From Jacaranda mimosifolia (Eukaryota; Streptophyta; Magnoliopsida; Lamiales; Bignoniaceae), in NCBI GenBank assembly GCA_018894105.1, contig CM032126.1:27254391-27318390 (forward strand): a DNA stretch of 64,000 nt, read 5' to 3'. How positions within the stretch are numbered: the first letter of the stretch is position 1; every line of letters starts with the position of its first letter. A program made the position numbers and the translations under genes. The notes under the pieces are model-generated. The model saw only the letters and a list, made by a program, of their open reading frames with translations. It ran no database searches and was not told the DNA's origin. Shown in pieces: positions 1,321-42,164 of this stretch.

Positions 1321-1945
1321 TAAATTATAATTTAGTCTCTAATATTATTATAATTATTATTTTGGTGATAACTGATTCATAAAAATGAATTAGAAATGAA
1401 ATGGTTATTTTCGAACCATTCTAAATTTTGTACTTTTTTTGTTATGAAATAAGCTGTAAGAATTTTATTGATTAGAATCAAAGGCCAAAGCCCAACCGGT
1501 AATTTCATCAAGACCAATAGAAATATTATGAAATTAAGAGTAAGCATTTCTAAAAAATAAAATGAGCACATTGGTTAGTGTAACATTGAACATGTGAGAA
1601 TGAAGAAGAATGCGTATGGCGAAAAAACTTCTTAGCATCCGAAATAAGTGGACCAATGGTAGATAAAATTGACAAACTGATCTTGTAGAGCACAAAACAC
1701 TGAGATGCAATTACCCTCAATAAAAACATTAGGCCATGAAAACTGTGAGCACAATTCACAGGTCACTTAGCTTTCGCAAGTCGAGAGAGCCACAATATGC
1801 TATGTCCCATGTTATCACCAGCAACAACTCCGATTCCAATGGACTGAGTATCTTTAAAAAAAGTGACATCACAATTAATTTTAAGATATTTAATAACGGG
1901 AAATTTTCATTCCTTGGAGAATACATATATATACATAGATATATA

Positions 1946-1954
1946 AAAATATAT
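1946..1954. repeat. candidate 9-bp target duplication, left
   Basis: AAAATATAT directly precedes the left terminal inverted repeat of the 15.2-kb MULE and recurs at 17148-17156 directly after the right one. Length and position fit Mutator. The AT-rich content makes chance more likely than for the other duplications in this window. Confidence 0.55.
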
Positions 1955-2100
1955 AGGGGCACTTATTTAAAAGTACCAAAAGCATTTTCCAATTTCATGT
2001 TCAGTCCCCACTTGATTTTTGTTAGAAGAAATTCCCTAGTTTTGTGAATATTTAGATATCACTATCTACTCACTTGATTTGACAAAAATACCCTTAAGTA
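1955..2100 (+). repeat. left terminal inverted repeat of the 15.2-kb MULE
   Basis: It is about 146 bp and pairs with 17003-17147. The best conserved segments are CAATTT..TGTTCAGTCCCCA, a CTCCCTA/TTCCCTA block and AATACCCTT. Overall identity by eye is roughly two thirds with small indels, so the two ends have diverged considerably. Confidence 0.8.
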
Positions 2101-2364
2101 TAATGTTTTTCACTCATTTTTTCTCACTTCTTCTTTATCCACACAAGCAAACAGTAAACCCTATCATATGCTCATTACCAGAAACAGAAAGAACAGAAAA
2201 AACGCAACAAGCTCCATGGCAGGAACGAGAATAACGTCAGAGCCAAAAACCACCAACCCGACATCAGCATTGTCTTCTTCTCTTTTTATTTTCATCATTT
2301 TCGGGTTTCATCTTCTTCTCAGTTTCTTCTCAGTTGCTTTTGAGTTTCTTATATTTTTCCGACA

Positions 2365-5300
2365 ATGTCAACTAGTAGTGAAGCAAGTGTGTTCAATCAA
2401 GTGTTGGGAAGTTGCTGCTACAAAGACCAACTCCATATAATGTCAATTAATGATAGTATGACTTTAATGGGCATGTACATTAATCTCGCAAGAAAATGGA
2501 GTGAAATCAACGCCGAGAATTTTAGTTTGCAATATATAGATCCATATCAAAGATTGTACGTGAGTTTAACTGATGACGCCGATGTCATGAATATGGTCTT
2601 ACTGCATTTGACATTGAAGATGAGCATTGTTGACATCCTGGTAAACCGAAAGGGTGAATTAAGTAGCAAAGCAAAGAAGAACAGTGATGTTTTAAGGTAA
2701 TACTTCTACAGAATTTAAACTGTACTGCAATTTGTAAAATTTTGTACTTGAAGTGTTTTGAAATTGCACTCTATTTATTTGAAAATCTTTCTCTACTTGG
2801 AGCATTCCACATTATACTTCATTGCAATTAACATTGTACTTCATCTGACAAAAATTATACTCTATTATGTAAGTTTTATACTTTAAGTGTTCTACTAATA
2901 GATTATCTAAAATTGTACTGTAACTTGTAACAGTTTATACTTGAAGTGTTCCCAAACTGTACGTATTCTATATAAAATTATACTTTCGATTTTCTGAAAT
3001 TATAATTCATTTTACCAAAACTGTACTGCAGTTGCTAGGGTTTTATACTTCAATTGTTTGGAAATTATACTTCATTTTATACAAATTTGTACTCCAATTT
3101 TTTGAAATTGTACTTCATTTCACTAAAATTGTACTCTATTATTTAAGTTTTACACTTCAAAGTGTTATACTAATTGATTATCCAAAGTTATACTGCTATT
3201 GATACCTGAAGTGTTCCCAAACTGTACTTCTTTTTATCTAAAATTGTACTTCAATTTTTTGAGATTATACTTTATTTTACAAAATATTTACTCTATTTAT
3301 TGAAGGTCTATACTTTAAGTGTTATATTTATTGATTATCCAAAATAAACTGCAGTTGCTAGGGCTTTATACTACAAGAGTTTGGAATTGTACTTCACTTT
3401 ATCTAAAATTGTACTTCTATTTTCTGAAATTATACTTTCTTTTGTACTTTATTTTACGGAAACCTATACTCTATTCTTTGAAGTTCTATACTTCAAGTGT
3501 TCTAAATTGGACTTCATTTTATCTAAACTTGTACTTCAATTATCTAAATCTATTATTTGACTTTCACGTTTTCTACTAATAAATTATCCAATTTGTACTG
3601 CAATTGCTAAGGTTTTATACTTCAAGTGTTCTGAAATTGTTCTTCACTTTATCAAAAATTGTACTTCTGTTTTTTAAAATTATACTTCATTTTATACAAC
3701 ATTTTACTTAAATTTGTACTCTTGTCATTGAAGTTCTATACTTCAGGTGTTCTCAAATTGTACTTCATTTTATCTAAACTTGCACTTCAATTGTCTGAAT
3801 CTATTATGTAAGGTTTATACTTCAAGTGTTCTACTAATTTATTATACAAAATCGTACTGCAATTGCTAAGGATTTATACTTTAGGTGTTCTGAAATTGTA
3901 CTTCTTTTTATATAAAATAGTACTTCTATTTTCTGAAATTATACTTCATTTTATCTAAACCTGTACTTTATTCATTGAAGTTATATACTTCAAGTATTCC
4001 AAAATTGTACTTCATTTTATCTAAACTCATACTTCAGTTATCTGAATCTATTATTTAAGTTTCTGGTGTTCTAGTAATGGATTATCCAAAAATTGTACTG
4101 TAATTGCTGAGGTTTTATACTTCAGGTGTTCTGAAATTGTACTTCACTTTATCAAAAATTGTACTTATAGTTTTTGAAATTATACTTCATCTTATACATC
4201 ATTTTACCTAAACTTGCATTCTTTTCAGTGAAGTTCTATACTTCAAGTGTTCTAGAATTGTACTTCACTTTATCAAAATTGTACTTTTATTTTTTGAAAT
4301 TATACTTGATTTTATACATCATTTTACCTAAACTTGTACTCCATCAATTGAAATTCTATACTTCAAGTGTTCGAAATTGTACTTTATTTTATCTAAACTT
4401 ATACTTCAATTATCTGAACCTATTATTTAATTTTGAAGCGTTCTACTAATGGATTATCCAAAAATTATACTGCAATAGCTAAGGTTTTATACTTCAGGTG
4501 TTCTGAAATTGTACTTCACTTTATCTAAAATTGTACTTTGATTTTTTGAAATTATACTTCAGTTTTTATATAATTTCACCTAAATCTGTATTATTTTCAT
4601 TGAAGTTCTATACTCTAGGTGTTTTGAAATTATACTTCGTTTTATACATCATGTTACGCAAACATGTACTCTATTCATTGAAGTTCTTTACTTCAAGTGT
4701 TCCGAAATTGTATTTCATTTTATCTCAACTTGTACTTTAGTTATCTGAATCTACTATTAAAATTTCAAGCTTTTTACTAATAAATTATCCAATTTGTACT
4801 GCAATTGCTAAGGCTTTATACTTCAAGTGTTTGAAATTGTACTTTACTTTATCAAAAATTGTACTTCGGGCTTTTGAAATTATACTTCATTTTATACATC
4901 ATTTTACCTAAATCTGAACTCTTTTCATTGAAATTCTATTCTTCAGGTGTTCTCAAATTGTACTTCATTTTATCTAAACTTGTACTTCAATTTTCTGAAT
5001 CTCTTATTTAATTTTCAAGTGTTCTGCTAATGGATTATCAAAAACTTGTACTGCAATTGCTAAGGTTTTATACTTCATGCGTTCCGAAATTGTACTTCAC
5101 TTTATCTAAAATTGTACTTCTGTTTTTTGAAATTATACTTCAGTTTATACATCATTTTACCTAAATATATATTCTTTTCATTGAAGTTTTATACTTCAGG
5201 TGTTCTGAAATTATACTTCACTCTATCAAAAGTTGTACTTCTGTTTCTTAAAATTATACTTTATTTTATACATCATTTTACCTAAATCTGTACTCTTTTC

Positions 5301-7729
5301 ATTGAAGTTCTATACTTCAGGTGTTCTCAAATTGTACTTCATTTTATCTTAATTTGTACTTCAATTTTTTGAATCTCTTATTTAATTTTCAAGTATTCTA
5401 CTAATGGATTATTCAAAAATTGTACTGCAATTGCTAAGGTTTTATACTTCATGCGTTCTGAAATTGTACTTCTTTTTATATAAAATTATACTTAAGCTTT
5501 TACGTAAAATTGTTCTCCATTATTTAAGTTTATAAAGTTCTATTAATTTTTCACTTCATTTTACCTAAAGTTCTATACTTATTGATTATAAAAAAAATAC
5601 TGCAATTGCTTGCGTTTTATACTTCTATTGTTCTGAAATTGTATTTCGTTTATTTGAAACTATACCACAATGCTGAATTATTCTACATATTGTACTTTAT
5701 TTTACCTAAAATTGTACTTTATTTGTCAACCTCAAGGGATGCAGTCGAGGAGGAAATTGGTTCGACCAATGCATCACATAATGAATTAGCTTTAATTAGC
5801 AATTCAATTGATGCATGGAGGAATTGCATATATGGAGAGGGTCAAACATTCAAGGATGCTCAGGAGTTTAGAATTATGCTTAAGAATTATATAGTGTCTA
5901 CTTTGCGGTCATTTAAATACAAGAAAAATGACAGCAAAAAAATCATAGTCGTTTGCAGTGATGAAAATTGCAAATGGAGAATCTATGCATCAAAGAATGA
6001 GGCTGATAAATTATTTGGCATTCGAAAATGCAATCTAGAGCACACATGTGGTGAGGCTAATCTTCGGACAAGGGGACATCCTAAAGCCGATTTCGCTTGG
6101 GTTGCTAACATAGTGAAGTATAAATTGAGATCAAAGCCATGTTATCGGCCCTCTACCATATTGAAAGATATCCACAAAGAATATGGTGTGGAAGTTAGGT
6201 ACCATAAAGCATGGATGGGTAAGGAATTAGCTATGCATGACATCCATGGAGCTGAGAAGGGATCTTATGATAAGTTGAGGTGTGATGCTACAAAGAGGAC
6301 AAAACCTGGAAGTATTGCAGACTGTGAGATTGACCTAATTAGTCAAAAAATTTGTCAGCTATTTATATGTTTCAGTGCCTGCCTTCTTGGTTTTCTCAAG
6401 GGATGCATGTTGTTGATATTCTTGGACGGCACCCATATTAAAAATAAATACAAAGGAGTCTTACTCAACGCTGTCAATAAGGATGCTAATGATGACTTAT
6501 TCACGTTAGCATATGCAATTGTTGACTCTGAAAATGATATTAATTGGGAGTGGTTCTGCATTAAGCTAAGAAGTGTCTTAGATTCTGAATATCTGCCTGG
6601 CTTATCAAGGTTTACTTTCTTCTCCGATCAACATCTAGGTCTTCTTAAGGCCCTCCCCATGATATTTCCCGGTAGCCACCATGCATATTGCTTGAGATAC
6701 TTAGTGGATAACTTTAAGAAACAAGTAAGTTTACTTTATCTTTGTTTGTGAGATAATTATGTGAAATAAACTCTAATTCATAACATTTAGCACATTACTG
6801 TTCTATTATTTTAAATTCAGGTATTAAGGAAATACCCTCTACATAACAAGAAACATTGGTATTCTGTTTTTATGAAAGCTGCATATGCGCCTACAAGGCA
6901 GGAGTATACCTGACATATAGACAACATCTTGGAGTCAATGCCACTTGCCAGAGACTTTATTATGTAGTCTGACCCACCATGCTGGGCAAATTCCTTATTC
7001 AGTGGAGATCCATGGGGTAATAAACAATAATCAAACAGAAAGTTGGAATAATTGGGTTAAACTAACCCGATTTATGCCAGTTGCAGCCATAGTTGATCAC
7101 ATACATATGCAAATAATGTTTATGATGCATGATCGACAAGAAGAATCTCATAAGATGGTGGGTCAATTTTGTCCCAAGTAAGAGAAGAAGTTGGCAATCA
7201 ATCATATGCGTTCTCGTAACTTAAAAGTTGTCGTGTCTAGTGGTTGGAGCTTTGAGGTGATTGAGCAAGATAAATCGTATCCTGTAGATTTACATAGCAG
7301 GTTTGTTCGTACAGAGCATGGAAGATTGATAAAATACCATACAGACATGCTTGTGCTTGTATCGAGTCAAAGTCACTTTCACCGTATGACTTCACCAATC
7401 AATACTACCGAGTTGAGATGTATCAACAAGCATCCCAAGCAGTGATAAACCCTATTCCTATGTTTGATATGAATCTATTCCCTCTAGATGATGATGTCTT
7501 CATTCATGCACTTGGCAGCCTATCTCAACCTGGGCGTAGAAGGACACAGATGATTCCATCACAGATTGATAAACGTGTAATTAAGTGTAAAAGGTGTGGT
7601 AAAACAAGGCATAATCGTCGAACTTGCAAAGAATTAGTAAACCAGTTAAATTTTGTACCTCAATCTGGGATAATTGTATTAGATTTTTTCACATTTGTAC
7701 CTCACTTGGGCATGAGGCAGGTGATTTAG
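2365..7729 (+). pseudogene. MULE transposase (vanA/MURA-like), decayed
   Basis: Exon 1 (2365-2696, ATG at 2365) encodes a ~110-residue PB1-like N-terminal region. A GTAATA donor at 2697 and an acceptor at 5736 remove array A, and the phases match across the junction. Exon 2 (5737-6724) carries the MuDR-type DNA-binding region (about 5800-6090) and the MULE catalytic core, with DGTHIKNKYKG and AYAIVDSENDINWEWF. A GTAAGT donor at 6725 and an acceptor at 6820 lead to exon 3 (from 6821). Exon 3 is broken by TGA at 6911-6913, a further stop near 6960, a frameshift near 7015 and TAA at 7179-7181. The SWIM-type zinc site near 7308-7365 reads CSY..YRH, so two of its four ligand Cys are Tyr. A CCHC knuckle (CKRCGKTRHNRRTC) follows at about 7591-7632. 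The frame ends inside the first unit of array B. It would have catalysed excision and integration of the element. Confidence 0.85.
2697..5736 (+). repeat. array A: T(G/A)TACTTC tandem array forming transposase intron 1
   Basis: About 3 kb of degenerate repeats is built on TGTACTTCA or TATACTTCA followed by AT-rich spacers, giving motif spacing of mostly 21-22 bp. A higher-order unit is marked by ACTGCAATTGCT near 3597, 3854, 4095, 4467, 4795, 5048 and 5421, so it is about 250 bp with variants near 330-370 bp. The array lies exactly between a GTAATA donor and a CTCAAG acceptor of the transposase gene. Open frames here are translations of the repeat, not genes. Confidence 0.9.
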
Positions 7730-9590
7730 CATGAAATTAGCATTCTTGCATGTTGTCTGAGATATAGTTAAATTTTGTACTTCAATCTGGGATAATTGTA
7801 CTAGATTTATTCACATTTGTACCTCACTTAGGCAATGATGCAGGTGATTTAGCGTGAAATTAGCATTCCTGCATGTTCTCCGAGATATAGTTAAAATTTG
7901 TACCTCAATATGGGATAATTGTACTAGATTTCTTCACATTTGTACCTCACTTAGGCAATGATGCAGGTGATTTAGCGTGAAATTAGCATTCTTGCATGTT
8001 GTCCGAGATATAGTTAAATTTTGTACTTGATTTCTTCACATTTGTACCTCACTTGGGCAATTACGCAGGTGATTTAGGGTGAAATTAGCATTCTTGCATG
8101 TTGTCCGAGACATAGTTAAATTTTGTATCTCAATCTTGGGATAATTGTACTTGATTTATTTCTTCACATTTGTACCTTACTTGGGCAATGATGCAGGTGA
8201 TTTAGCGTGAAATTAGCATTCTTGCATATTGTCCGAGACATAGTTAAATTTTGTACTTGATTTCTTCACATTTGTACCTCACTTGGGCAATGAGGCAGGT
8301 GATTTAGCATGAAATTAGCATTCTTGCATGTTGTCCGAGATATAGTTAAATTTTGTACTTGATTTCTTCACATTTGTACCTCACTTGGGCAATGACGCAG
8401 GTGATTTAGCGTGAAATTAGCATTCTTGCATGTTGTCCGAGATATAGTTAAATTTTGTACTTGATTTCTTCACATTTGGACCTCACTTGGGCAATGAGAC
8501 AGGTGATTTAGCGTGAATTAGCATTATTGCATGTTGTCCGAGACATAGTTAAATTTTGTACCTCAATCTAGGATAATTGTACTTGATTTCTTCACATCTA
8601 TACCTCACTTGGGCAATGATGCAGGTGATTTAGCATGAAATTAGCATTCTTGCATGTTGTCTGGGACATAGTTAAGTTTTGTACCTCAATCTGGGATAAT
8701 TGCACTTGATTTCTTCACATTTGTACATCAGTTGGGCAATGATGCAGGTGATTTAGCGTGAAATTAGCATTCTTGCATGTTGTCCGAGATATAGTTAAAT
8801 TTTGTACCTCAATCTGGGATAATTGTACTTGATTTCTTCACATTTGTACCTCACTTGGGCAATGAGGCAGGTGATTTAGCGTGAAATTAGCATTCTTGCA
8901 TGTTATCCGAGACATAGTTAAATTTTGTACCTCAATCTGGGATAATTGTACTTCATTTTTTCACATTTGTACCTCACTTGGGCAATAAGGCAGGTGATTT
9001 AGCATGAAATTAGCATTCTTGCATGTTGTTGAGACATAGTTAAATTTTTTACCTCAATCTGGGATAATTGTACTTGATTTCTTCACATTTGTACCTCACT
9101 TGGGAAATGATGCAGGTGATTTAGCGTGAAATTAGCATTCTTGCATGTTGTCCAAGACATAGTTAAATTTTGTACTTGATTTCTTCACATTTGTACCTCA
9201 CTTGGGCAATGAGGTAGGTAATTTAGCGTGAAATTAGCATTCTTGCATGTTGTCCGAGACATAGTTAAATTTTGTACCTCAATCTGGGATAATTGAACTT
9301 GATTTCTTCACATCTATACCTCACTTGGGCAATGATGCAGGTGATTTAGCGTGAAATTAGCATTCTTGCATGTTGTCCGGGACATAGTTAAATTTTGTAC
9401 CTCAATCTGGGATAATTACACTTGATTTCTTCACATTTGTACCTCAGTTGGGCAATGATGCAGATTAATTACCGTGAAATTAGCATTCTTGCATGTTGTC
9501 CGAGACATAGTTAAATTTTGTACCTCAATCTGGGATAATTGTACTTGATTTCTTCACATTTGTACCTCACTTGAGCAACTTTGTACTTAA
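7645..9590 (+). repeat. array B: ~123-bp tandem repeat downstream of the transposase
   Basis: About 16 units are present, counted by AGCATTCTTGCATG. The full unit is about 123 bp and a shorter form of about 95-105 bp lacks one GTAC-to-GTAC segment. Each full unit has three motifs (TTTGTACCTC, ATTGTACTTG, TTTGTACCTC) spaced 21 bp apart, then a constant 70-bp block. The first unit overlaps the end of the transposase reading frame (stop near 7727). Units are similar enough to imply recent amplification. Confidence 0.92.
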
Positions 9591-9844
9591 TATCTTAATA
9601 TTTTTACTAATATTTTTGAATTGAATTTTTTTCAAATATTGCTTTTTAAGTCTTGGTAATTAATAACCAAACTATAAATATGTGTCTAATAGTTATCATA
9701 TGAATAAAATAATGTTAAAATTTTTAAGTTGTTAATCACTAGTGTTCAACGGATGAATGTTATCAACTGCAGTAATGAAAGAACACTTATGCTTTCAAAG
9801 ATGTAAACAAATGAGAAATTGACGATGATATCCACCCTATCACA

Positions 9845-10890
9845 GGTATAAATTCGTACTTCACCCGATCCGATAATCTCAAATTATTGTACTTGACCAT
9901 CATTACAATTATTGGAGAATAATTATTCAATTGCAATAAGTGTACTTCAACAAAAAACACATTTTATACTTGGTTCGTTCTGAGTTTGTACTTCATTTCT
10001 CCATAATTGTACTGAGTTTGTACTTCATTTCCCCTTAATTGTACTCAAGTTCCCTGCCCAGTTTCAATTGAATTTAAGTGTTGTTCAGCAAAATACATTT
10101 TATACTTTCTTTGTTCTGGGTTTGTAGTTCACTGCCCTCAAAATGCACTCAAATTCGCCGCTCAGTTTCAATTGAATTGAAGTGTACTTCAACAAAGCAC
10201 ATTTTATACTTTGTTTATTCTGAGTTTGTACTTTGTTCCCCCTGAATTGTACTCAAGTTTCCTGCCCAATTTCAATTGAATTTAAGTGTTCTTCAGCGAA
10301 ACACATTTTATACTTTCTTTGTTCCAGGTTTGTACTTCACTGCACTCAAATTTGCTGCCCAGTTTCAATTGAATTGAAGTGTACTTCAACGAAACACATT
10401 TTATACTTTGTTTATTCTGAGTTTGTACTTCGTTTCCCCTGAATTGTACTCAAGTTCCCTGCCCAGTTTCAATTGAATTTAAGTGTTCTTCAGCGAAACA
10501 CATTTTATACTTTCTTTTTCCGAGTTTGTACTTCACTGCACTCAAATTCGCTGCCCAATTTCAATTGAATTGAAGTGTACTTCAACGAAGCACATTTTAT
10601 ACTTTGTTTATTCTGAGTTTGTACTTCGTTTCCCCTGAATTGTACTCAAGTTCCCTACCCAGTTTCACTTGAATTTAAGTGTTCTTCAGCGAAACACATT
10701 TTATACTTTCTTTGTTCCAGGTTTGTACTTCATTGCCCTCAAAATGCACTCAAATTTGCTGCCCAGTTTCAATTGAATTGAAGTGTACTTCAATGAAGCA
10801 CATTTTATACTTTGTTTATTCTGAGTTTGTACTTCATTTCCCTTGAATTGTACTTAAATTCCCTGCCCTATTTCAATTGAATTTAAGTTA
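9845..10890 (+). repeat. array C: ~100/200-bp alternating repeat
   Basis: About nine half-units of roughly 100 bp are marked by TTTCAATTGAATT (near 10063, 10169, 10273, 10366, 10469, 10562, 10666, 10770 and 10873). Two half-unit types alternate, giving a ~200-bp higher-order repeat. Inside each, TGTACTTC, TATACTTT, TGTACTTC and TGTACTC recur at 21-22 bp. The array lies between the 3' ends of the two convergent genes. Open frames here are repeat translations. Confidence 0.9.
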
Positions 10891-12019
10891 TAAATAATTA
10901 ATGAAAAATTACACTTACATACAAAATAATATTATAAACAAAGTATGCTTCAATTTACACATGTATTTACATACAAAGTGATTCAAATCCTGGCATTTTC
11001 ATGACTTAATATTGTATATGCCATTGTGGCACGATATTTATCAATTTCAATTGTTCTAGCATCCCTCCAGAACTCGGGGGTGTCTCTAACAAAACGTTCT
11101 GCCCAAAGGCACACATAGATACCACAATCTACTATACTCACTTGCTGCCTGCTTTTTTTCTGCCTCATGTATTCGTCTACACGACTCCCCAATTAAAGCT
11201 TCATGTACCGAGAATAGAATGAAGCCTACAAAAATATTGATCAATTGTTGACTCTTTACTTTATGAAGAAATCATAGGGAAAGGAAGCAAACTTACAATG
11301 GTAATAGCTATCGGTTTGTATCTGGCAACTATTATTGAATTCATGTATAAGAAAGAACGAGTCGAGGTGTCGAGGACAACCAAGAACCAGTGATGGTGCC
11401 AGCAAATCGGTAGGATTATGTAGCGACACTGGTTTAAAATATCCACCGTGAGCTCTTCCAAATCTTTACAGGTGAAGGTGTTAAGTTTAGGTATCAACTC
11501 CACAAATTCTTCATCCGTACTATCCTTAATGTTGCGTCCCTCGAGTCGGTCTAATATATCAGCCTATGAAGTATAAAACAAATGGTTAGACTCATTGGAA
11601 ACATGAACTAAATTAAGTTAGGAAACTACCACATACCTGCGCTATTAAGGATGTAAACCACACATTGTGGTGACACTTCTTGCCGAAAGATGGGCTACAT
11701 AATATCGACATGTAGCAGTCCACTATGTCATTGGTAAGTTCTCCTCCAAATAAGAGCTCACAAAAGTTTCTTCCATCCAGAAACCGTCTTGCTCCCTCAC
11801 AAACAGTCACCCTACACAATTGTTAATTGTTTGTTCAAATACTAATTTATCCAAAAGAAAAAAAATAAGAAAATTTTGTTACCTCAAATTATCTCTTTTG
11901 ACAAAGTTGTCGATGACTTCTTGCTCTTCTATTAGAGTAAGAGCAAGACCTCTATAATCAGTCCTTCTTTTATAGGGATCAGCCACTTCAGTCTTTGGGC
12001 TGGTTGGTTCATCTGCCAC

Positions 12020-13033
12020 CTGGGGTACAAAACACAGCACATTAGGTACAAAGTATCAACTATTGAAGTAGAAAAGATAAGCACATGAAGTACAGATATC
12101 ACCAACATGGAGTATAAAACTCAAGCACATTAGGGATAAAGTATCAACTATTGAAGTACAAAAGATAAACACATGAAGTACATATATCACCAACATAGAG
12201 TACTAAACTCAAGCACATTAGGTATAAAGTATCAACTATTGAAGTAGAAAAGATAAGTACATGAAGTACAGATATCACCAACATGGAATACAAAACTCAA
12301 GCACATTAGGTATAAATTATCAACTATTGAAGTAGAAAAGATAAGCACATGAAGTACAGATATCACCAACATGGAGTACTAAACTCAAGCACATTAGGGA
12401 TAAAGTATCAACTATTGAAGTAGAAAAGAGAAGTACATAAAGTACATATATCACCAACATGGAATACTAAACTCAAGCACATTAGGTATAAAATATCAAC
12501 TATTGAAGTAGAAAAGATAAGCACATGAAGTATAGATATCACCAACATGGAGTACTAAACTCAAGCATATTAGGTATAAAGTATCAACTATTGAAGTAGA
12601 AAAGATAAACACATGAAGTACAGATATCACCAACATGGAGTACTAAACTCAAGCACATAGGTATAAAGTATCAACTATTGACGTACAAAAGATCAACACT
12701 TGAAGTACAAATATCCCAACATGGAGTACAAAACACTAGCACATGAGGTATAAAGTATCAACTATTGAAGTATAAAGATTAGTACATGAAGTACAAATAT
12801 CGCCAACATTGAGTGCAAAAGATTAGCACATTAAGTATAAATATCACCAACTTGGAGTACAAAAGATTAGCACATTAAGTACAAGTATCACCAACATGAA
12901 GCATAAGATATCATCCATTAAGTGCAAATATCAACCAATCAAGTATAAGATATCATTACATTTATTACAAACAGACAGTTTACAAATGAAATGCAAATAG
13001 CAAAAAAATAAAACATGAAGTAGTGTATAACAC
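12020..13033 (-). repeat. array D: 88-bp repeat (4 x 22 bp) inside an intron of the Ulp1 gene
   Basis: On the plus strand the unit is four consecutive 22-mers beginning GAAGTAGAAAAG, GAAGTACAGATA, GGAGTACTAAAC and TAGGTATAAAGT, repeated about ten times. The minus strand therefore carries TGTACTTC-type motifs every 22 bp, so the array is inverted relative to arrays A to C but agrees with the direction of its host gene. A GTGTTA donor after 13034 and a CCCCAG acceptor before 12019 bound it, and the reading frame continues in phase across the intron. Confidence 0.9.
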
Positions 13034-14632
13034 CTTCTTCTCTTCTTGTTCTTTGTTTTTTCGTGCATGAGGACGAGCACGATAGGTCTTTGTTACTTGT
13101 CTTGCTCTTTTGGCTGGTGTGGTGCTCGGGGGGCTAACAAAATCTAGAGATTTCTGTTTTGGCTTCATGTCTTCTCAATTGCGCACATTTTTCACAATCG
13201 AGGACATGACATTTGCCACTTCAAACTCAGATTTCTCGAACTCAACCGCTTGAATTGGTATATAATGTTCTGTCTTCAAAGGTATGGGGGAATCTGAAGG
13301 ATCATGATGGTGTTTTGTTCGACTTTCTTCATCCACCATGTCTTCAGAATCATCCCCTTTTTTTCTGTGCATCATGTACCAAATCAAGTCCCCCCTTATG
13401 CACATACTCACCAGCTTTCTGCTCAAGCTCTACCCCATCCGTCTTGTCCTCAGCTAGATGCTCCTTCTCACCCTGCTCCTTCATTGCCATGTATTCGAAT
13501 GAAGCAATTTTTTCTTTCAATGATTTAATTTCTTCAACTTTCGCTGCGATAATTGTTTCATATATTGTATGATCACAAACATGGACTTCACTAATGGCAG
13601 TACTGGCAGCCTCTGATTTCTTGATCAAAATTGCCAATTCTAACTCTTCTAGAGCAGGGTTGAGGGCTACAACCTATTACAATGGAAATAATTATCAAAT
13701 TCAAATTATTATACAAAAAACTAATATTGAATTATTACAATTATTACTATATCTGTTGTAACTTGCTTCAATTTATTCTCTGCCTGCTCCACATTATGTT
13801 GGAGTTTGCTATCCTTCCACCGGTAAAAGCGTGGAAACTCAAACAAACTCACTGCTAAAGCCAATAACGGGATGCATTCATAAACCCATGCCTGTCATTC
13901 ATAAATCAAAAAATTATACTCACTTGAATATAAATATAATCAATGTTATTAGAAAAATGAAGCAAACACTTACCATCATTCCGACTGTATACCCATCAAT
14001 GTACTTCTTGGTTCTTTCTCTACCTACTCCTAAATGGTTCCTCATATCTTGGATAAGAAAATTGTATGCAGCTATGCCCCATGCATACAAACCAACTCTA
14101 GACAAATTGTCCAAGTATGGTAGGAGAAATCGTGTAGTCCAATAATTAGATGTTGGAAACAGAATACAATTAAAAACAAAAAGTATGTACAACCTGCAAA
14201 AATTATTCAAGTTCTCCACACTATCCTTATATACATATTCCTCAAACTTTTTTGCTATTTCAGATCTATTTATATTCTGCAGCTTTCCAGAAAAAAGGCA
14301 GTGAAAGGTTGAAGACTTCATCTTCAATGTTATATCAACATATTACCCCACATGTGGCAACCCTGAAACCATAGAAAATTTAGCTGCAAAAAAAGGAACC
14401 TCAACCCCTTCTGCAAAATGAAATGACAGCTTTTTTGGGTCAAACCTCCTAAGTATAGCTTCAAGCCGAATGAAGCTTGAACTTAACTTAGGCACATCCA
14501 TGTATATATAGAAAGTGGTCTTCTTAAATGCATCAAAATGTTTGGACCCCATCTTGGACTTCACAAGCTCCAATTTACTCTGAAAATATTGGGGGGAGCA
14601 ACAAGAGCAGGCCTCACAATGTCTTGGCTTTA

Positions 14633-16732
14633 CTGCAATGAGAAAAAAAAAATTAGTATATAAACAGATAATAAACTAACCCTTTTAGATATAGTGTACT
14701 AAAAACTTGAATGTTTTGTACTAAAGATGCTTTTAAAATGTACTTCAAAAACACATAATATATACTACACTTTCAGTTATTTTATACTTCAGGTTTGAAT
14801 GTTTTATACTACAGTTGCTTCTAAAATGTACTGCAAATACACATATTATATACTAGAGTTCCATTTAATGTATACTGCAGGCTTAAAGGTTTTATACTTC
14901 AGTTGGTTCTAAAATGTACTACAGATGTAAAGATTATATACTACATTTTCAATTAATGTATAATGTAGGCTTGAATGTTTATGTACTAAAGATGCTTCTA
15001 AAATGTACTGCAACTCTACAGATTATATACTACACTTATGCCTAAAGTGTACTGCCAGTTTGAATATTTTACACTACATTTGCTTCTAAAATGTATTGCA
15101 CCTACAGAGATTATATACTACACTTTTGCTTAAAGTGTACTCCAGATGCTCCTAAAATGTACTACAGCAACATAGATTATATACTACACTTATGCCTAAA
15201 GTGTATTGCCAGTTTAAATGTTTTATATTACATTTGCTTCTAAAATGTACTGCAGCTCTACAGATTATATACTACACTTATGCCTAAAGTGTACTGCAGG
15301 TTTGAATGTTTTGTACTATATTTGCTTCTAAAATGAACTGCACCTACAGAGATTATATACTACACTTTTGCCTAAAGTGTATTGCAGATGCTCCTAAAAT
15401 GTACTGCAGCTATACAGATTATATACTACACTTTTACCTAAAGTGTACTGCCAACTTGAATGCTTTTACTACCTTGCTTCTAAAATGTAATGCAGTTACA
15501 TAGATTATATACTACACTTATGCCTAAAGTGTACTGCAAGTTTGAATATTTTATACTACACTTGCTTCTAAAATGTACTGCACCTACAGAGATTATATAC
15601 TACACTTTTGCCTTAAGTGTACTGCAGATGCTTCTAAAATGTACTGTAGCTATATAGATTATATACTACACTTTTGCCTAATGTTTACTGCAAGCTTGAA
15701 TGTTTTATACTACGTTTGCTACTAAAATGTACTGCAGCTTTACAGATTATATATTACACTTATGCCTAAAGTATACTGCCAGTTTGAATGTTTTATATAC
15801 TACACTTGCTTCTAAAAAGTACTGCACCTGCAGAGATTATATACTACCATTTTGCCTAAAGTGTACTGCAGATGCTCCTAAAATGTACTGCAGCTATACA
15901 GATTATATACTACACTTTTGCCTAAAGTGTACTGCCAATTTGAATGCTTTTAATATCTTGCTTCTAAAATGTACTGCAGCTACACGGATTATATACTACA
16001 CTTATGCCTAAAGTGTAATGCAGGTTTGAATATTTTATACTATATTTGCTTCTAAAATGTGCTGCACTTACACAGATTATATACTACACTTTTTCCTAAA
16101 GTGTACTGCCAACTTGAATGCTTTTACTACCTTGCTTCTAAAATGTACTGCATTTACATAGATTATATACTACACTTATGCCTAAAGTGTACTACAAGTT
16201 TGAATGTTTTATACTACATTTGCTTCTAAAATGTGCTACAGCTACACAAATTATATACTACAATTTTGCCTAATGTGTACTGCAGATGCTCCTAAAATGT
16301 ACTGCAGCTATACATATTATATACTATACGACCTTTTTGCCTAATGTGTATTGCAAGTTTGAATGTTTTATACTACATTTGTTTCTAAAATGTACTACGG
16401 TTACCTAGATTATATACTACACTTTTGCTAATGTGTACTGCATGCTTGGATGTTCTGTACCACTTTCAGATAGTTTTATCGTATAATTTTGCCATATAAT
16501 TTTAATTAAAAAGAAGTATAAACCCCTAAAAGGTGAAGTGCAACTTTCATGCCCATCAAGTACAAATTAGAAACATCTCATCTCACAACAGAAATCATAT
16601 ATACATCAAAGGGGTTCAATTGTTTAACGACTAAAAAAGGAATAAAAACCCTAAACATGAGAAAATAGACAAGAAATGAGTGTAATACTGAAAAATCATG
16701 GACATTTGAAATTGCAAATGCGGAAAACATAC
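14633..16732 (-). repeat. array E: 88-bp repeat (4 x 22 bp) filling intron 1 of the Ulp1 gene
   Basis: Repeats span about 14690-16480 within a 2.1-kb intron bounded by a GTATGT donor (16732) and a TTGCAG acceptor (14633). On the plus strand the unit consists of 22-mers starting alternately ACTGCAGCTACACAG and ACTACACTTATGCC, each preceded by TGT or TAT, so TGTACTGCA and TATACTACA alternate every 22 bp. About twenty 88-bp units are present with some 66-bp variants. The motif faces against the direction of its host gene. Open frames on the plus strand are repeat translations. Confidence 0.9.
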
Positions 16733-17002
16733 CTTTGCTTCTTTTGATCACTTTTTTTTGTACTTTGCTTCTTGTTACAGCTGTTTTTCCTTCCATTGTC
16801 GTAGAAAAATGGCAGAAATTTTGGTGCCTTTTTCTTTTTCACTTCTTCTTCTTCTTCTCGCGTCAATGGCAGAGGAATAGTTTCGCGCCCTTTTCTTTTG
16901 GCGCTTAGAGAAGTCGATTTCAGGCAAAAAAAAAAAAAAAAAGGAAAGCGTCCTTCTTCAAGAGAGAATGCATTTTTCAAGTATTTTTGTTGTTTTTTTC
17001 AG

Positions 17003-17147
17003 TTTCAAGGGTATATAAGTCTTTCTAAAAGATATGGGGAGTGATTCCTAACTTTTGTGAAAAAGTAGGGAGTTTAGTATGTAAAAATTCAAATGGGGAC
17101 TGAACACTAAATTGAAAGTAGGGTTAGGGATTTTTTTCTAATTAACT
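17003..17147 (-). repeat. right terminal inverted repeat of the 15.2-kb MULE
   Basis: This is the inverted partner of 1955-2100. On the plus strand it reads GGGGACTGAACACTAAATTG near 17095-17114 and AAGGGTATAT near 17008. The outer end is CTAATTAACT at 17147, followed directly by the candidate duplication AAAATATAT. Confidence 0.8.
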
Positions 17148-17156
17148 AAAATATAT
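17148..17156. repeat. candidate 9-bp target duplication, right
   Basis: AAAATATAT matches 1946-1954 exactly and abuts the right end of the element. It lies in an AT-rich stretch, so it supports but does not prove the boundary. Confidence 0.55.
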
Positions 17157-18917
17157 ATTACATATCTAATATTCTATTTTATTTGGGTTGTAATTAATAT
17201 TTATTGTAATTAATATTTATATGAAATATGTAAAATATATATTCATGTATGCAGCACCCGTACATTCATATGCAAGCATATATGAAAATATATAATACTA
17301 TATAAGACTTCTATATATATATATTCTATGTAGACAAGATTAAAATATTAATGTAAAATAATATATATTATTAAATATAGCATATACACATGAATATTAA
17401 ATTATATCCACTAAAGAGAAATATATTTCTTTTTATGTAAATTATAGTATTTAAGCAAAGCAATATGCATTTATTTAGATATTTATATATAGATATGTAG
17501 TAAATGTATCTGTAAAAACAATATACATTAATCTATACTACACAAATAAATTAATAAAGGTTAATTAATATCTTATACGTGATATGGGTTAGATAAGCGG
17601 GTCGTGTTACCTAGGCATGATGGTTGTTTGGTTATATGGGCTGTAAATATGGCCCAAGCTCATTATTTATTTTGGGCCCATGAGCACTGGTAACTTGGTT
17701 TAAGAGATTAAAGAAGTTCAAGATAGGAATGTTAATGGGTTGGATTTGGATTGGATCATGCTGGATTCAAATCTGAATATAAAAGTAATATGTCAAAATT
17801 TGATTCAAAATCCATCAGATCTGTAGTTGGTATACCCATACTCGAATCCAAATAAAAGTCGGATATAAAAAAAATCTAAATTTGAATATTTCAAAAATTA
17901 TCATATATTTATTGTTTTTCTAAAAATTTAATAGAATTCAAATTCAAAACAATTATCCTTAAAAAAAATACACAACAGATTAATGAATAAATTTTTAAGT
18001 CTATTGATCACTTAAAAACAACAATAAAATTTAATTTAATCACATTTATTCACCAAATCATTACATTTTAAGTTCCGTTGCTGATAATAATACTTATTTG
18101 TCATTATAAATACATAGTTATATATTTGATTATTCAATTAACAAACTATAGACTCGAAGTTTTATAAAAAAGAAACTCATTTTGATCAAATCGAGATTTG
18201 CACTGCATTCTTGTCATCTTATTTCATTCAACTCCTACTCATTATTCTTCCTACATCATTTTTTGTTATAAAAATAGAGAAACAAGTGATGTAATTATGA
18301 TATGAATAAGCTCAAAATCTAACAATTTATATGAAAAGCACATGATTTGATATATTGCATATGGTTCATTATTTCATTCATCCAAATATCCACATTGGTA
18401 TTGTTATAAGACCCTGTGTATACATATGTATGATACTATATATGTATAATGCTAAATATATTCGGATTCGAATTATTAATGGAACGGATTCAACCATATC
18501 CATATTTGCTCAATTTATTTCAGATTACAAACTTTTTTAATCGGATCATATCCATCGAATCTTTTATCGATAAAGATCCTAAATAATTGGATCGAATTCG
18601 AATCCGAATTCAAATTCGGATTAAAATCCGCTCCATTGACAGCCCTAGTCTAAGCCTAGTCAACCTCTTTAGCTTATCATTACAAATGCACCTAGTTACA
18701 ATGTCACTAGGTACATAATTTCTATTTTGTTACCTATAATTCTCTATTCATACTACCCTATTTATCAAATATTGACTTAAATGTTTGAGTATTTTCATCA
18801 TAAAATATATTAGTGACCCTAATAGTTTATTTTGAAATGCAAGCCCAGATTCCAAGCAATTATCAGGAGTTGTTCGAATCCACAATAAAAGTAAAAAATT
18901 TCACGTAACTGCACGAA
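17157..18917. other. AT-rich intergenic DNA
   Basis: Low-complexity AT-rich sequence (17157-17560) is followed by a MITE candidate (17725-18647) and about 270 bp of unremarkable sequence. No gene or RNA gene is recognisable. The plus-strand frame at 18355-18540 lies inside the MITE and has no domain. Confidence 0.6.
17725..18647. mobile_element. MITE / non-autonomous DNA transposon with TGTYAATGG termini
   Basis: The left end AGGAATGTTAATGGGTTGGA and the reverse complement of the right end, AGGGCTGTCAATGGAGCGGA, match at most positions and continue as GGATTT, giving an imperfect ~24-bp inverted repeat around 0.9 kb of non-coding DNA. Sub-terminal GGAT/ATCC-rich sequence is typical of plant elements with TGTCAATGGG ends. 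No exact target duplication was found. Confidence 0.5.
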
Positions 18918-26590: not shown

Positions 26591-29500
26591 GTGATGTTGT
26601 GTCATGCCTGGTTGCTATTAATAGAAATATATTTTTTTATAGTCATTATGGATCGAGTTATTCATGCTAGACAATCTAGGACTGAAAGGAGATCGACCTT
26701 GAATCATCGTAGAAACTCGCTGGAGTTGGTTACACATCCTTCCGATCCTTTATGTTATTCATTTCCCACACAAGTGTCCAGTATGAGATCATCGAATAAT
26801 GGGTACCCATATTTCATCCGTCCAAATAATCATAATCATAATCATACTTTTTCTCATACTTGTTACCAAGGATGGCAATATTTAATCATCTACAACAACA
26901 ATGCCTCATCAAATTCCAGAAACTATTTCTATCAACAATTCGAACTTATGTTTTTGGATATCTAAACAATCAATTCGAAATTCCTCTACCAATCACTTTT
27001 CTCAAATTAATGTGAGCTTGACACCTTTAGCAAGTCATACCATTTCTCCCTCTATTTATCAAAACCAATTCATTGGTCGAATGAGTAATACTGATATATT
27101 ACAACCTCAACTCTCATCAACTCAACATTTCACTACTTTCGCCAATTTCATTACACCAAACTTCCAAAATGGAACTTCACTGTATTCAATGCCAAATAAT
27201 GGCAATGCATCAACTGTTAGTGGTTCAATGCCATGTAATCACAATACATAACCATTTCAAAATCCTAATGACTGAATGAAAATTGATGATTTTGGAAACT
27301 CTATACCATCCTCTGAAACTTCATATGATAAATCGTTTTAGTTTTTTCACAGATTCCTTATTTTATATTTGTTAAGAAATAATTTAACTTTCATTATGAA
27401 TTTGAAATAGATATTTCTATCAATAAGCTGAATGAAGGGGCCCACAGTTATGTTCCTCGCCGTAAGTAACAATAATACTTAAAGTGTAGAAGTATTATTT
27501 GGATTATGACTCCCCTTGATCGTAACATCAAACATCATAATTTGAACCCCTAATCATTGGTAAATACACTCAACCATGGGATTTTAGTGGCCTGACAAGT
27601 GTTTGCATCAAATGTGGGGCAATTATGTGGTATGAAAAATGTACCATAAAATCTCGAAGACTGACAATTCCCAAATTCTCAATTTGTTGTTGAGATGGTC
27701 AAGTTCAATTGCCACGACTAAAAGAGCCCCCAGAATTGCTGAAAAGGTTGTTGGACTACCAGGGTGGTCTATCTTCCAAAAGATTTAAGGAAAATATCAA
27801 GACAATAAATTCAATGTTTGTATTCACATCAATGGGCGAACACATTCATAACAAAATAAATAATGGTCGTGGACCATATTGTTTTCTATAGAATGGACAA
27901 AATCTATCATGCCCCAAAATAATATCAAACTATGTATACTAAAAGCGTGAAACAATTCCCAAATAATTGAAACTTAACAATCCAAAATTTTAAGGTTAAA
28001 TAAGAACTCAACCAAAAGTAGACTTAAAACACAAAACTCAAGTGTCAATACCTTTTCGGAACTAAAACACAATTAAATCCCTAATAAACAAACAAAACTG
28101 ATGAACTTAAGAGAAATATACTAGTCTACTGAAAATCCAAAACTACTTCTTCACTCTTGATTCTCATCATATGCAGGATCCACCTCCTCATTAGGACTAA
28201 GATCTATGTCTGCCGAAAGAAAGTTAAAGAAAAGAAAAGAGTGTGAGTAAAAGACTCAGTGAGTGCTGAGTGTGTGTAAAATGAGTTTTGAATTAAAAAT
28301 CAATTGTACCGAGGAAATTTATTCGAGAAAACAGAGGTGAAATTCGTAAAATAATCAAGCGGTAACAATCAAGAAGTTATCAACCAGTTCCTTAGACTAA
28401 CAACTTAAATACGATGATCAAATAGTGTTTGTTGTAGCCAATCAAACAGTCAACCGGTATTACCAAAACGTGATAGCTTGGCACAGTGTAGATGCCTAGG
28501 AGGAAATCCCTAGCGCATCGCTGATACCCAGGGGGAAATCCCTAGCATATCGCTCGTACCCAGGGGAAATCCCTAGCGTATGGCTAGCACCCAAGGGGTA
28601 ATCCCTAGCGTATCGCTAACACTAGGGGAAAATCCCTATCGTGTCCAGTATAGCCAAACGTTTCGCCAGGATGGGCACTAAATAGTTCCCTGTACTGATA
28701 TTTAGTCAATAAACAATTTGCAGATACCCAAGGGGAAATTCCTAGCATATCGCTGATACCAGATAAAACAGTAAGTCGATGAGGCAACAAATAACAGTAC
28801 AGAACATTGCAGAACAGATAACAGTACGGGGTAGTGTAGAATAGTACAAAACAAAATAGGTAACAGGACAGTAACAGTAAGAATAATCAGTTGATCATCG
28901 AGTTTAATTTGCTAGTCTAAATGCATAAAAAAATCATAAAAGCATAGGTTTTCTTTTATTCAGAAATAAAACAAGAAAAAAAAAATTCTTTTTGTATGCA
29001 GTGGAATACATATATAGTGCAGTGTAAGTTGAAAACGAGTCACGAACAATTATATAATAGTGTATGTCCTTTTGGGTTTTGGAACATTAGCAATATATAG
29101 GATTTATAAGTTTAGGCACTTATCTTGAGATCAATCCTAGACGTCAATCTCGTATTTCAGAATCAATCGTAACAACAGTTGAGTCACCTAGTTCATTTAT
29201 TAAATACTTCAATCACCAATTTAATTGATAATCAAGATAAAACTCACTAGGATTAGCCTTATGGGTATCATAAGCTTGTAGTACCTTAAACCCAATAATC
29301 CTAAAATTTTCATCAATATACTAAAAGCCACAAGTCATTAACAAATCCAGTCAGACCCACTTGGATGATATTTTTCCACAGCAATTTGTGCTTAAACTTG
29401 AGAAAACTTTATTTCTATCAAAATTTGCGGCTGATTTATTAAGGAAGAATAAGCATTAAGTTCTACACATACTTGGCTATGGAATTAAGTGATTCTACAT

Positions 29501-32500: not shown

Positions 32501-34216
32501 TGGGAATTTTGGGTCTTAGTTTGAGCTTTGACCAATTAAAGAACTATACATTGTTTGAAATAGAGAAAATAATGAATGCTAACAATAGGTCGCTGAGAGA
32601 ATTTCCATACCTTCCATTCCCAAATATTGGTGAAGTAGCTGGTCTGAGAAACAAATTAGTAATAGAGGAATTATGTTATGATAGGCGGTCGCTTTTACAA
32701 GAGCATATTCAATCATTTAATTGCTTAAATGTTGATCGAATTCGAGTGTATAATGTTGTTATTGATGTGGTCCATTGAGGAACATGTGGTTTATATTTTG
32801 TGCATGGTAGTAGAGGAACAGGGAAGACATATTTATGGAGAATAATAATGGCATGCTTGCATTCTCAAGAAAAAATAGTTTTAGCTATTGCATCTTCTGG
32901 TATAGCTTCCCTTTTACTACCAGGGGGACGAACATCCCATTCTAGGTTCAAAATTCTAATATTAGTTGACAATAAGTTGATATGTAATATCAACCAAAAC
33001 TCCCCTTTGGCTGATTTGATTTGCAAAGCATTATTAATTGTTGGGGATGAGGCCCCAATGCAACACAGACATATATTTGAGACAATGAATCGCACATTTA
33101 GAGCTATTATGAAGTTTAATGATCTGAAAACTGAGTATAAAATATTGGAGGTAAAGTCGTGCCGTTGTGAGGTGATTGTAGGCAGATATTGCCTGTAGTC
33201 AATAAAGGTGGATGTTTTGATATTGTTACTACATCTATTAACAACTCTACAGATAGCTGGGATCATTGCCAAGTTTTTCTGTTGACCATAAATATGAGAC
33301 TAACGAATGCATCATTGAATCATAATGGAGTTTGAACTATGCAAGAGTTTGCTAAGTGGGTATTAGATCTTGGTGAAGGTAAGTTGCTTGCGATTGCCTT
33401 GGATGATGAAGAAGAGCCTTCTTGGGTTAACATTCCTGATGATCTCTTGATTTTTGGAGAATCAAATCCAATAGGTGAAATTGTTCAAAGCACATTTCTA
33501 GACTTATTGTCAATGTATAATGTGCCAGAATATCTTCAAAGTAGAGCAATTTCTCTCTCCAACAAATGAAATTGTTGATCAAGTGAATTTTCATATAATG
33601 TCATTGATTCTTGGAGAAACTAAGCAATACCTGAGTGCAGATAAGATACATCCAACTTCAACCTGTGGTGATAAGCAATCCATCCTTTATCCAACCGAGT
33701 TTCTCAATACTCTGAAATTCTCAGGAATACCTGAACATAAACTTAAGTTGAAAGTTGGGGCTCCAATTATTCTTCTGAGAAACTTGAATTAAAGGCTTGG
33801 ATTATGTAATGGTACAAGGCTAATTGTGATGCAATTAGCTAACATAGTTATTGAAATTGAGGCTATTATTGGAAAAAGTATTGGCAAATGATTTTTTTAT
33901 TCATCACATAGATATGTCTCCAACTGAATCTAAATGGCCTTTCACTTTTGTGAGACGTCAATTTTCTGTAAAAGTGTGTTTCACTATGACAATTAACAAA
34001 AGTCAAGGCCAAACTTTTGATAATGTTGGTGTTTATCAGCCGAAACCTATTTTTAGTCATGGTCAACTATATGTTGTAGTTGCACGAGTGACTTCAAGAC
34101 AAGGGTTGAAAATTCTAATTAAAAATAATGAAACTCTTGACAATTCTTACACAAAGAATGTTGTCTACAAGGAAATTTTTGACAATTTTCCAAGAGGTAT
34201 TAGTTATTTTGCATGA
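26591..34216 (+). pseudogene. Helitron Rep-helicase (RepHel), decayed and interrupted
   Basis: N-terminal exons (26591-27251) are Asn/Ser-rich. A zinc-finger-like CIKCGAIMWYEKC lies at about 27606-27645, followed by the Helitron_like_N region (27709-27891). A solo LTR then splits the gene at codons GQN|HHLIGS. After 30155 come the remaining N domain, ELHPSFVAMRYPLLFPY (30555-30605) and the Rep nuclease with HUH motif PHTHILLF (31321-31344). The second catalytic tyrosine of KYLFKYxNKG is Cys here (TGT at 31741-31743). The Pif1-type helicase has Walker A GSRGTGKT (32805-32828), Walker B VGDEAPM (33037-33060) and the C-terminal motifs TINKSQGQTFDNVGVYQP and SHGQLYVVVARVTSR. There are many stops and frameshifts, for example TGA at 32776-32778. 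The protein would nick, unwind and rejoin DNA in rolling-circle transposition. An intron at about 31196-31284 is likely. Confidence 0.88.
27905..30154 (-). mobile_element. solo LTR, copy 2, inserted in the Helitron Rep gene, TSD AAATC
   Basis: In the minus orientation the element starts TGTAATGCCTTAG (30154) and ends GGGGCATGATA (27905), matching the ends of the solo LTR at 20987-23042. AAATC flanks both sides (27900-27904 and 30155-30159). Removing the insert restores the Helitron reading frame from GQ to HHLIGS, which confirms the boundaries. Internally it has a ~43-bp tandem repeat (28490-28640, again near 28725) containing GGAAATCCCTAGC, and pyrimidine-rich tracts at 29758-29900. No polyprotein is present. 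Confidence 0.75.
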
Positions 34217-40860: not shown

Positions 40861-42164
40861 TTTGGGTTTAAATACATTTAACCCCCCCTGTAAAGTCTTT
40901 AATTGGCACAAAACCCCATAACATTATTTAATTATCTAATAACCCCCTGTATTCTTTGAAATGATGCTCACTCGCACCAATTGATTTTTTCCAGCTTTTG
41001 AATAATCAAATGTCTGAATTGCCCTTTGTTATATAGTAAAATCTGCAGAATTGTATTGAGATTTCTAAAGTAAAATGTTTTGACTCTCTTAAACCAGTTT
41101 GAATAACCCTGGAACACGACTGGAACAACGCCCAAAATTTGTACCTACATTCCTGTTTTCAAGCCCATTTTCGTGTTAATCTTGCATCTAGGTTTGTGTT
41201 TTGTGTATCCAAGCGAATAATTTTGAAGGTACTGGCCCATTTGTGAAACGAGGCGAGCTCGAAGTGCAAATGCGTACACATTTGAATACAAAGCCAGCGA
41301 GCGCACAAGCAAGGTTCTGAATCTTTTGTAAACGGGCAATTGAAGCTATTGAAGAATACATTCGAGGTAACCAACATGCGCATCCATTTTTCTTCTATTG
41401 TTGTGATTAAGTTCTAAGGCTTTTCGAATTTTTGCTATTATTTGTGTTATTTCTATGCTATTTTGAAGAGAAATAACTCGATTCAAATTTTTTGGTATGA
41501 AATCGTTTGCATTATATGTATATGTGCATTAGGGCTTCTGAAAAATGTGAGAGTGTTATTTCTGAAATGCTTGCTTGTAGCTATGTTATGATTTTTCAAT
41601 TTTAATCCATGATTAGATTATTGTTCAAGCATTTTGAGCATATTTTTTAAAAAAGGTTTTCACTTTGGGTGACTAAGGGTTGAAATTTTTGTAATACCTA
41701 CAAAATCCTTCACTATTTAGGTATTCAACTAAGTAAAATATCTAATTTTTTTCACATTATGTGTTTGAGGTTTGAAATTTCTATAATATGACCCTTTAGG
41801 TGTAAAATCCTTTTTCTGTTTAGGTACTGAAATAAGTAAAATGTATAAAAACAAATTTCATTTTAGGTGTCTTAGGATTGAAATTTCTATATTATAGCAT
41901 AATAGATTGCTGACTGTTATGCTTTTAGTGCTTATATTTCTGAAATTCAGATTATGTCAATTTATGACACAAATAGGTGCTAACTATTATGTCTTCTATT
42001 ATGTGTGGTATGATTTTTAATGATGACTATATTCTGAGTAGGAATGAAGTTTATAATTAAGGCATGTAAAACTATTGTTGTTTATGATTATTGTTTTCTA
42101 AGAAACCATAATTTTAGTTTTGTGTTTTTCTTTTCTTTTCCGTTTTGTTTTTTACTGCAGTGTA

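Follow-up and report, generated by a model that had tools for sequence, protein, structure and literature searches.

Why should five tandem arrays within one transposable element, each with its own repeat units, be built around the same short word at the same spacing? The question is raised by a Mutator-like element (MULE) of 15,193 base pairs (bp) in Jacaranda mimosifolia, which lies in the left part (1956-17148, plus strand) of the window, that is, of the whole stretch of 64,000 nucleotides (nt) analysed here (GenBank assembly GCA_018894105.1, contig CM032126.1, forward-strand positions 27,254,391 to 27,318,390). A preliminary description, made from the letters alone, had proposed that the arrays share T(G/A)TACT every 21-22 bp, that all motifs lie on one face of the DNA, and that the element recognises itself in the manner of VANC21, a protein of the Arabidopsis element VANDAL21. 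With an estimated probability of roughly 0.6, judged from sequence, structure models and analogy, the five arrays may be read as clusters where a VANC-like protein encoded by the element itself would bind, serving anti-silencing.

Five arrays, one oriented word and its step

The arrays are placed and built as follows:

2697..5736, plus strand: array A, filling the first transposase intron, with 93 TRTACT in sense orientation
7644..9578, plus strand: array B, 123/102-bp units, with TGTACC and TGTACT in 21-bp steps
9888..10888, plus strand: array C, 104/208-bp units, with 30 TRTACT
12021..12971, minus strand: array D, 88-bp units (4 x 22), with 20 TRTACT on the minus strand
14695..16440, plus strand: array E, multiples of 22 bp, in intron 1 of a minus-strand gene, with 62 TRTACT antisense to that gene

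All five arrays are detected by Tandem Repeats Finder, which bears out their initial recognition. Together they hold 220 copies of TRTACT in a single orientation within each array (main/opposite orientation: A 93/0, B 15/0, C 30/0, D 20/0 on the minus strand, E 62/1), the lone opposite site lying in E. The counts exceed those of all 500 dinucleotide shuffles of each array (means A 7.8, B 1.4, C 0.7, D 5.0 and E 9.4), and the proposed word is thus enriched throughout, yet not uniform, as array B mostly carries TGTACC (22, against 15 TRTACT). When one-degenerate hexamers are ranked by their lowest enrichment across the five arrays, TRTACT is 16th of 36,864, all 15 hexamers that outrank it being versions or one-base shifts of TGTACT. 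The element as a whole holds 233 TRTACT sites, while the rest of the window has 71 on both strands in 48,807 bp. Of the fuller word TRTACTNCA the element has 124 copies, compared with a mean of 1.9 in 200 shuffles and a single occurrence in the rest of the window. Arrays A and D carry the motif in the sense orientation of their genes and array E in the antisense orientation, which argues for recognition as DNA. A function at the RNA level was rejected, since positions 1900-17200 gave no Rfam match at gathering score and since the orientation of motif to gene differs among the arrays.

The step is equally distinct from shuffled controls, with TRTACT pairs at 21/22 bp numbering 59 in A, 1 in B, 18 in C, 6 in D and 45 in E; no shuffle mean exceeds 0.08. 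The single pair in B reflects its composition of 15 TRTACT and 22 TGTACC, and TRTACTNCA seldom recurs at 21/22 bp in B/C. Among plus-strand TRTACY pairs 7-33 bp apart, 43 are at 21 bp and 98 at 22 bp, with at most two at any other distance; on the minus strand, three are at 21 bp, six at 22 bp and three at 9 bp. Allowing an exact word or one mismatch, the next site is found at +21/+22 for 78/93 sites in A, 23/38 in B, 20/30 in C, 23/27 in D and 59/62 in E, while other offsets average 0-10% (maxima A 29%, B 3%, C 33%, D 56%, E 34%). Nor does the step merely repeat one expanded unit per array: the sequences between motifs form 68 independent spacer classes, 28 of them with spacings of at most 33 bp, and 21 of these 28 are at 21 or 22 bp (A 6/9, B 3/3, C 4/5, D 2/4, E 6/7).

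The claim that all motifs share one face of the DNA was overstated. With 10.5 bp to a helical turn, a step of 22 bp spans 2.1 turns, so that a long array slowly winds round the helix. A 10.5-bp phase was absent when a further 28 spacer classes, those with off-register gaps, were tested (p about 0.5); these gaps best fit 11.2-11.5 bp, a value obtained post hoc. Being out of phase at 10.5 bp, they led to the rejection of global one-face phasing.

Arrays D (12021-12975) and E (14680-16480) are also strongly CpG-poor, each with an observed/expected ratio of 0.09; exon regions have 0.35-0.72, arrays A-C 0.37-0.52 and the right flank 0.66. Long-term methylation and selection against CG are possible causes.

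Word and step across sister copies

The host assembly (707 Mb) contains 997 candidate places for the transposase exon, of which 40 were scored; all 40 match, namely the window itself and 39 places at 88-94%. Ten sister copies were sampled. Nine are at ~93% in the transposase exon; the most distant, c9, is at 88% there and at 75% in its protease piece. Clusters of at least six sites occur at the places and in the orientations of A, C, D and E in all ten copies, and of B in five, while copy numbers and units of the arrays vary. Pooling the window copy and the ten sisters, 1100 of 1200 neighbouring spacings of at most 33 bp are 21 or 22 bp, and 2012 sites lie along the array orientation against 58 opposed to it; the array E region of copy c2 was left out of the pooled counts (43 of 44 region rows used) because its PMD/DUF1985 landmark was not located. 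Each copy holds some 140-220 oriented sites (row sums, with the one region of c2 missing), whereas only 17 sites lie, on the two strands together, in the 27,152 bp of exon pieces from the 11 elements. The modal spacing is 21/22 bp in 49 of 78 spacer classes of at most 33 bp, and in 30 of the 36 seen at least three times. Among words recurring at +21/+22 with dissimilar following sequence, TRTACT comes first in the 11 copies (968; the next, its own one-base shift, 585). Genome-wide, three TRTACTNCA in two 21/22-bp steps give 12,964 matches (6545 + 6419, overlaps counted), and the reversed pattern gives none (0 + 0).

Persistence of the motif in homologous elements is strong in A and E and weak in B/C and D. 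Across copies, TRTACT ranks first of 2830 word classes in array A (1/3041 starting from c9) and 30th of 1931 in E (19/1174 starting from c9), the counts behind all across-copy ranks being pseudo-replicated since array units align many-to-many. For higher-order copies inside the window element, its rank is 2/328 in A, 5/11 in C, 72/260 in E and 548/584 in B, with D without rank.

A probable VANC-like protein and the explanations weighed

A candidate binder is offered by the minus-strand gene, whose recognisable parts are:

16733..16796, minus strand: exon 1, with an ATG at 16796 and an in-frame splice
13977..14632, minus strand: PMD/DUF1985-like exon, modelled with the VANC21 fold, with one stop codon in the window copy
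10986..12020, minus strand: Ulp1 (C48) protease exons, two pieces over the Pfam cut-off, exons putatively joined

Intron 1 (14633-16732, 2.1 kb) has GT-AG borders and is in frame, and array D is probably a further intron. The PMD/DUF1985-like exon and the Ulp1-type pieces probably belong to one protein, as the sequence suggests. PMD and DUF1985 profiles score the window exon about equally, DUF1985 with 1.8e-4 and 21.9 bits, under its cut-off of 35.1, and PMD with 3e-4; in the host assembly, 2 of 147 listed DUF1985 places exceed the cut-off. For two structure models, including one of the window's own exon, no PDB entry other than 9lnj (VANC21 with DNA) matches credibly, and one family sequence profile also puts VANC21 (9lnj) first (E 0.0047). 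The gene is therefore predicted to encode a protein of the VANC fold. A viral fold library gave one near-threshold match (A0A890CAY5, E 1.4e-3, probability 1.00, root-mean-square deviation 13.7), and no array-like peptides are prominent among the 104 proteins examined. Dozens of DUF1985 places in the host assembly share an identical score of 29.9 bits and a 273-residue open frame, suggesting a recent burst of intact copies.

The arrays and this gene can be joined in one mechanism, for which the word, its spacing, its orientation, its persistence across copies and the VANC21 fold have been established by sequence and models. The VANC-like protein, PMD/DUF1985-like and probably joined to an Ulp1-type protease, would bind TRTACTNCA. 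Since all sites of an array point the same way, with a step of some two helical turns, neighbouring molecules would sit side by side along an array, and the two-turn step suggests contact, and so cooperation, between them. The VANC21 precedent suggests that the protein, bound within introns and between genes, would keep the family's own copies unsilenced while sparing the host. Such VANC-like self-recognition with a two-turn site spacing is probable. It could further be guessed that the Ulp1 part removes SUMO at the bound DNA. The fuller scenario, in which a protein combining VANC-like and SUMO-type protease parts lines up cooperatively along the sites and locally deSUMOylates silencing proteins, in a large family that, to judge by the nearest named proteins, is probably outside the mustard family, is doubtful. 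If true, the element would counter silencing through local deSUMOylation that it addresses to itself.

In Arabidopsis, the word bound by VANC21 is YAGTATTAY, and VANC6 has words of its own; both kinds lie in non-coding tandem repeats, in introns and upstream regions (PMC5735166), which agrees with what the preliminary description said of VANC21. The Jacaranda element resembles VANDAL21 and VANDAL6 in carrying a short word in fast-changing tandem repeats outside coding sequence, introns included, and, according to the models, in encoding a protein of the VANC fold. It differs in its word, in its strict 21/22-bp step, in showing two genes in place of VANA, VANB and VANC, and in its Ulp1 protease exons. 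VANC is drawn with DUF1985 and DUF287 in PMC5735166. The same paper terms the specific recognition of long targets by one VANC protein enigmatic; many oriented sites at a two-turn step are a suggested answer. The words "spacing" and "periodic" are absent from its main text, as is "spacing" from that of PMC10398659. PMC5735166 was the only paper found to join VANC with DUF1985, and none was found joining DUF1985, MULE and Ulp1. No precedent was found for 22-bp or helical-turn transposon arrays or, among the matches listed, for helical phasing, in a search that excluded supplements and the VANC21 structure paper, so the rule may be in print; the structure was mentioned as unpublished in a 2022 meeting note (PMC8756742). 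The about equal PMD score also recalls MAIN/MAIL1 and PMD-bearing MULEs, whose captured PMDs have been speculated to serve anti-silencing (PMC5418596), although MAIN and MAIL1 are host proteins acting in silencing (PMC5418596, PMC7156037). Phased arrays are not seen in the available parts of these two papers on PMD proteins. The family would offer a natural series for the joint change of a selfish element's protein and its sites, and would add another address system to the one known for editing the epigenome at chosen sequences.

Several observations weigh against VANC-like self-recognition. VANC21 was not listed by profile A2 nor by single-sequence searches, DUF287 is not among the matches for the minus-strand pieces scanned, which cover the gene with gaps, and the VANC21-type fold may be common to PMD proteins with other jobs. 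Across copies, the rank of TRTACT is unremarkable in B/C (422/1991; 102/902 starting from c9) and in D (272/993; 29/848 starting from c9). Nor are the known words enriched in the element, with one YAGTATTAY against 1.4 expected, and one AGTTGTAC and no AGTTGTCC, the VANC6 words, against 0.7 and 0.4; identity with VANC21 or VANC6 sites was rejected on these counts. By eye, AGTAYAA, on the reverse complement side of the TRTACT word, is one base off the VANC21 core AGTATTA. What stands of the self-recognition first proposed is thus the shared word, a two-turn spacing that outlives the spacers and the modelled fold, without one-face phasing or a uniform TRTACT in B.

In an unlikely alternative, the arrays would be bound by another protein, either the transposase of the element or a factor of the host, and would act in transposition or transcription rather than in anti-silencing. 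Clustered sites in one orientation suit any DNA-binding protein, the transposase carries a MuDR-type DNA-binding domain, and SPL proteins, which bind GTAC, are candidate host factors. Yet transposase sites are typically subterminal, while these arrays are internal, starting ~0.77 kb from the left end and stopping ~0.7 kb from the right, with only 12 of the element's 233 sites outside them. Moreover, TATACT sites have no GTAC, and the VANC21 fold, as modelled, makes a better candidate binder.

Less likely again is an origin of the arrays from an old unit of 22 bp that was duplicated in tandem neutrally, with motif and step a remnant and no selection by a protein. Indels do come in whole units, and the motif is little conserved in B and D. 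When distinct-type spacers were compared with permuted ones, they were slightly more alike in E (P 0.01), and a small excess of likeness between arrays was present in 6 of 10 pairs (P below 0.05), which points to some shared descent. In A, B, C and D, however, distinct-type spacers are as unlike as permuted ones while the word stays, and TRTACT is first in A across copies; word and step have outlasted the spacers, and a single ancestral 22-mer as the whole cause was rejected, with E as the exception. How a simple array looks is illustrated by viral contigs, where the array pattern gave four matches (checked by site counts, two of them by sequence): phage-like contig L003, with a terminase-like open reading frame by eye, carries six TATACT at exact 22-bp steps (3907-4028) with mostly uniform spacers, a picture of simple slippage.

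A structural signal, with helically phased A-tracts or TA steps bending DNA or placing nucleosomes, is improbable: an AA/TT period of 11 bp is present in A, D and E, but B and C have others (20.5 and 10.4), and bending needs no fixed word such as TRTACTNCA in one orientation. The step also coincides with the 21-22 nt of plant Dicer products. That it reflects the length of small RNAs produced from these repeats is nevertheless highly improbable, as an RNA size demands no repeated word per step and the word runs with its gene in A and D but against it in E, even though the non-coding repeats of VANDALs are targets of RNA-directed DNA methylation (PMC10398659).

The element, its transposase gene and the rest of the window

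The element and its plus-strand gene comprise the following features:

1956..17148, plus strand: the MULE, with 9-bp repeats AAATATATA at 1947-1955 and 17149-17157
1969..2043, plus strand: left arm of a degenerate terminal inverted repeat, partner at 17061-17135 (75 nt, 72% complementary)
2365..2696, plus strand: transposase exon 1, PB1-like (PB1 E 0.0013, below cut-off), with an in-frame splice to the next exon
5737..6723, plus strand: transposase exon encoding the MuDR DNA-binding domain and the MULE domain (PF03108 4.1e-16, PF10551 1.4e-16, both over cut-off)

The transposase, with its MuDR DNA-binding domain and both Pfam profiles over cut-off, places the element among MULEs, as do the 9-bp target-site duplications of the window copy and, perfect and at matching boundaries, of eight of the nine sister copies with both ends found. 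The duplication is absent from c18, and the left end of c9, the tenth copy, was not located. Owing to the sister copies' duplications, the element ends were shifted by one base, to 1956-17148. A 9-bp duplication is a VANDAL trait shared by the Jacaranda element, and in VANDALs terminal inverted repeats are absent or short and degenerate (PMC6446971).

The two genes are convergent, with arrays B and C between them, and the transposase exons are joined in frame across a 3,040-bp GT-AG intron, which array A occupies. The window copy is damaged, both by the stop codon in its PMD/DUF1985 exon and by a stop between the same-frame open stretches 6921-7178 and 7182-7442 in the later transposase part. 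Named relatives of the transposase exon (5738-6748) come from Gesneriaceae, other Lamiales and also gingers (Zingiber; Curcuma longa); Curcuma longa, at 67% identity, is second best of the 87. This patchy spread might reflect horizontal transfer. No relatives of the exon were found in viral contigs.

Elsewhere in the window, a second, different MULE at 42120-44415 has a MuDR DNA-binding domain and a SWIM finger, lacks tandem arrays and holds four TRTACT sites in 2.3 kb, both strands counted. A PIF1-like helicase fragment at 32800-33195 (2e-38) is perhaps of Helitron origin, and an unrelated 32-bp tandem repeat of 4.6 copies lies at 28495-28642.

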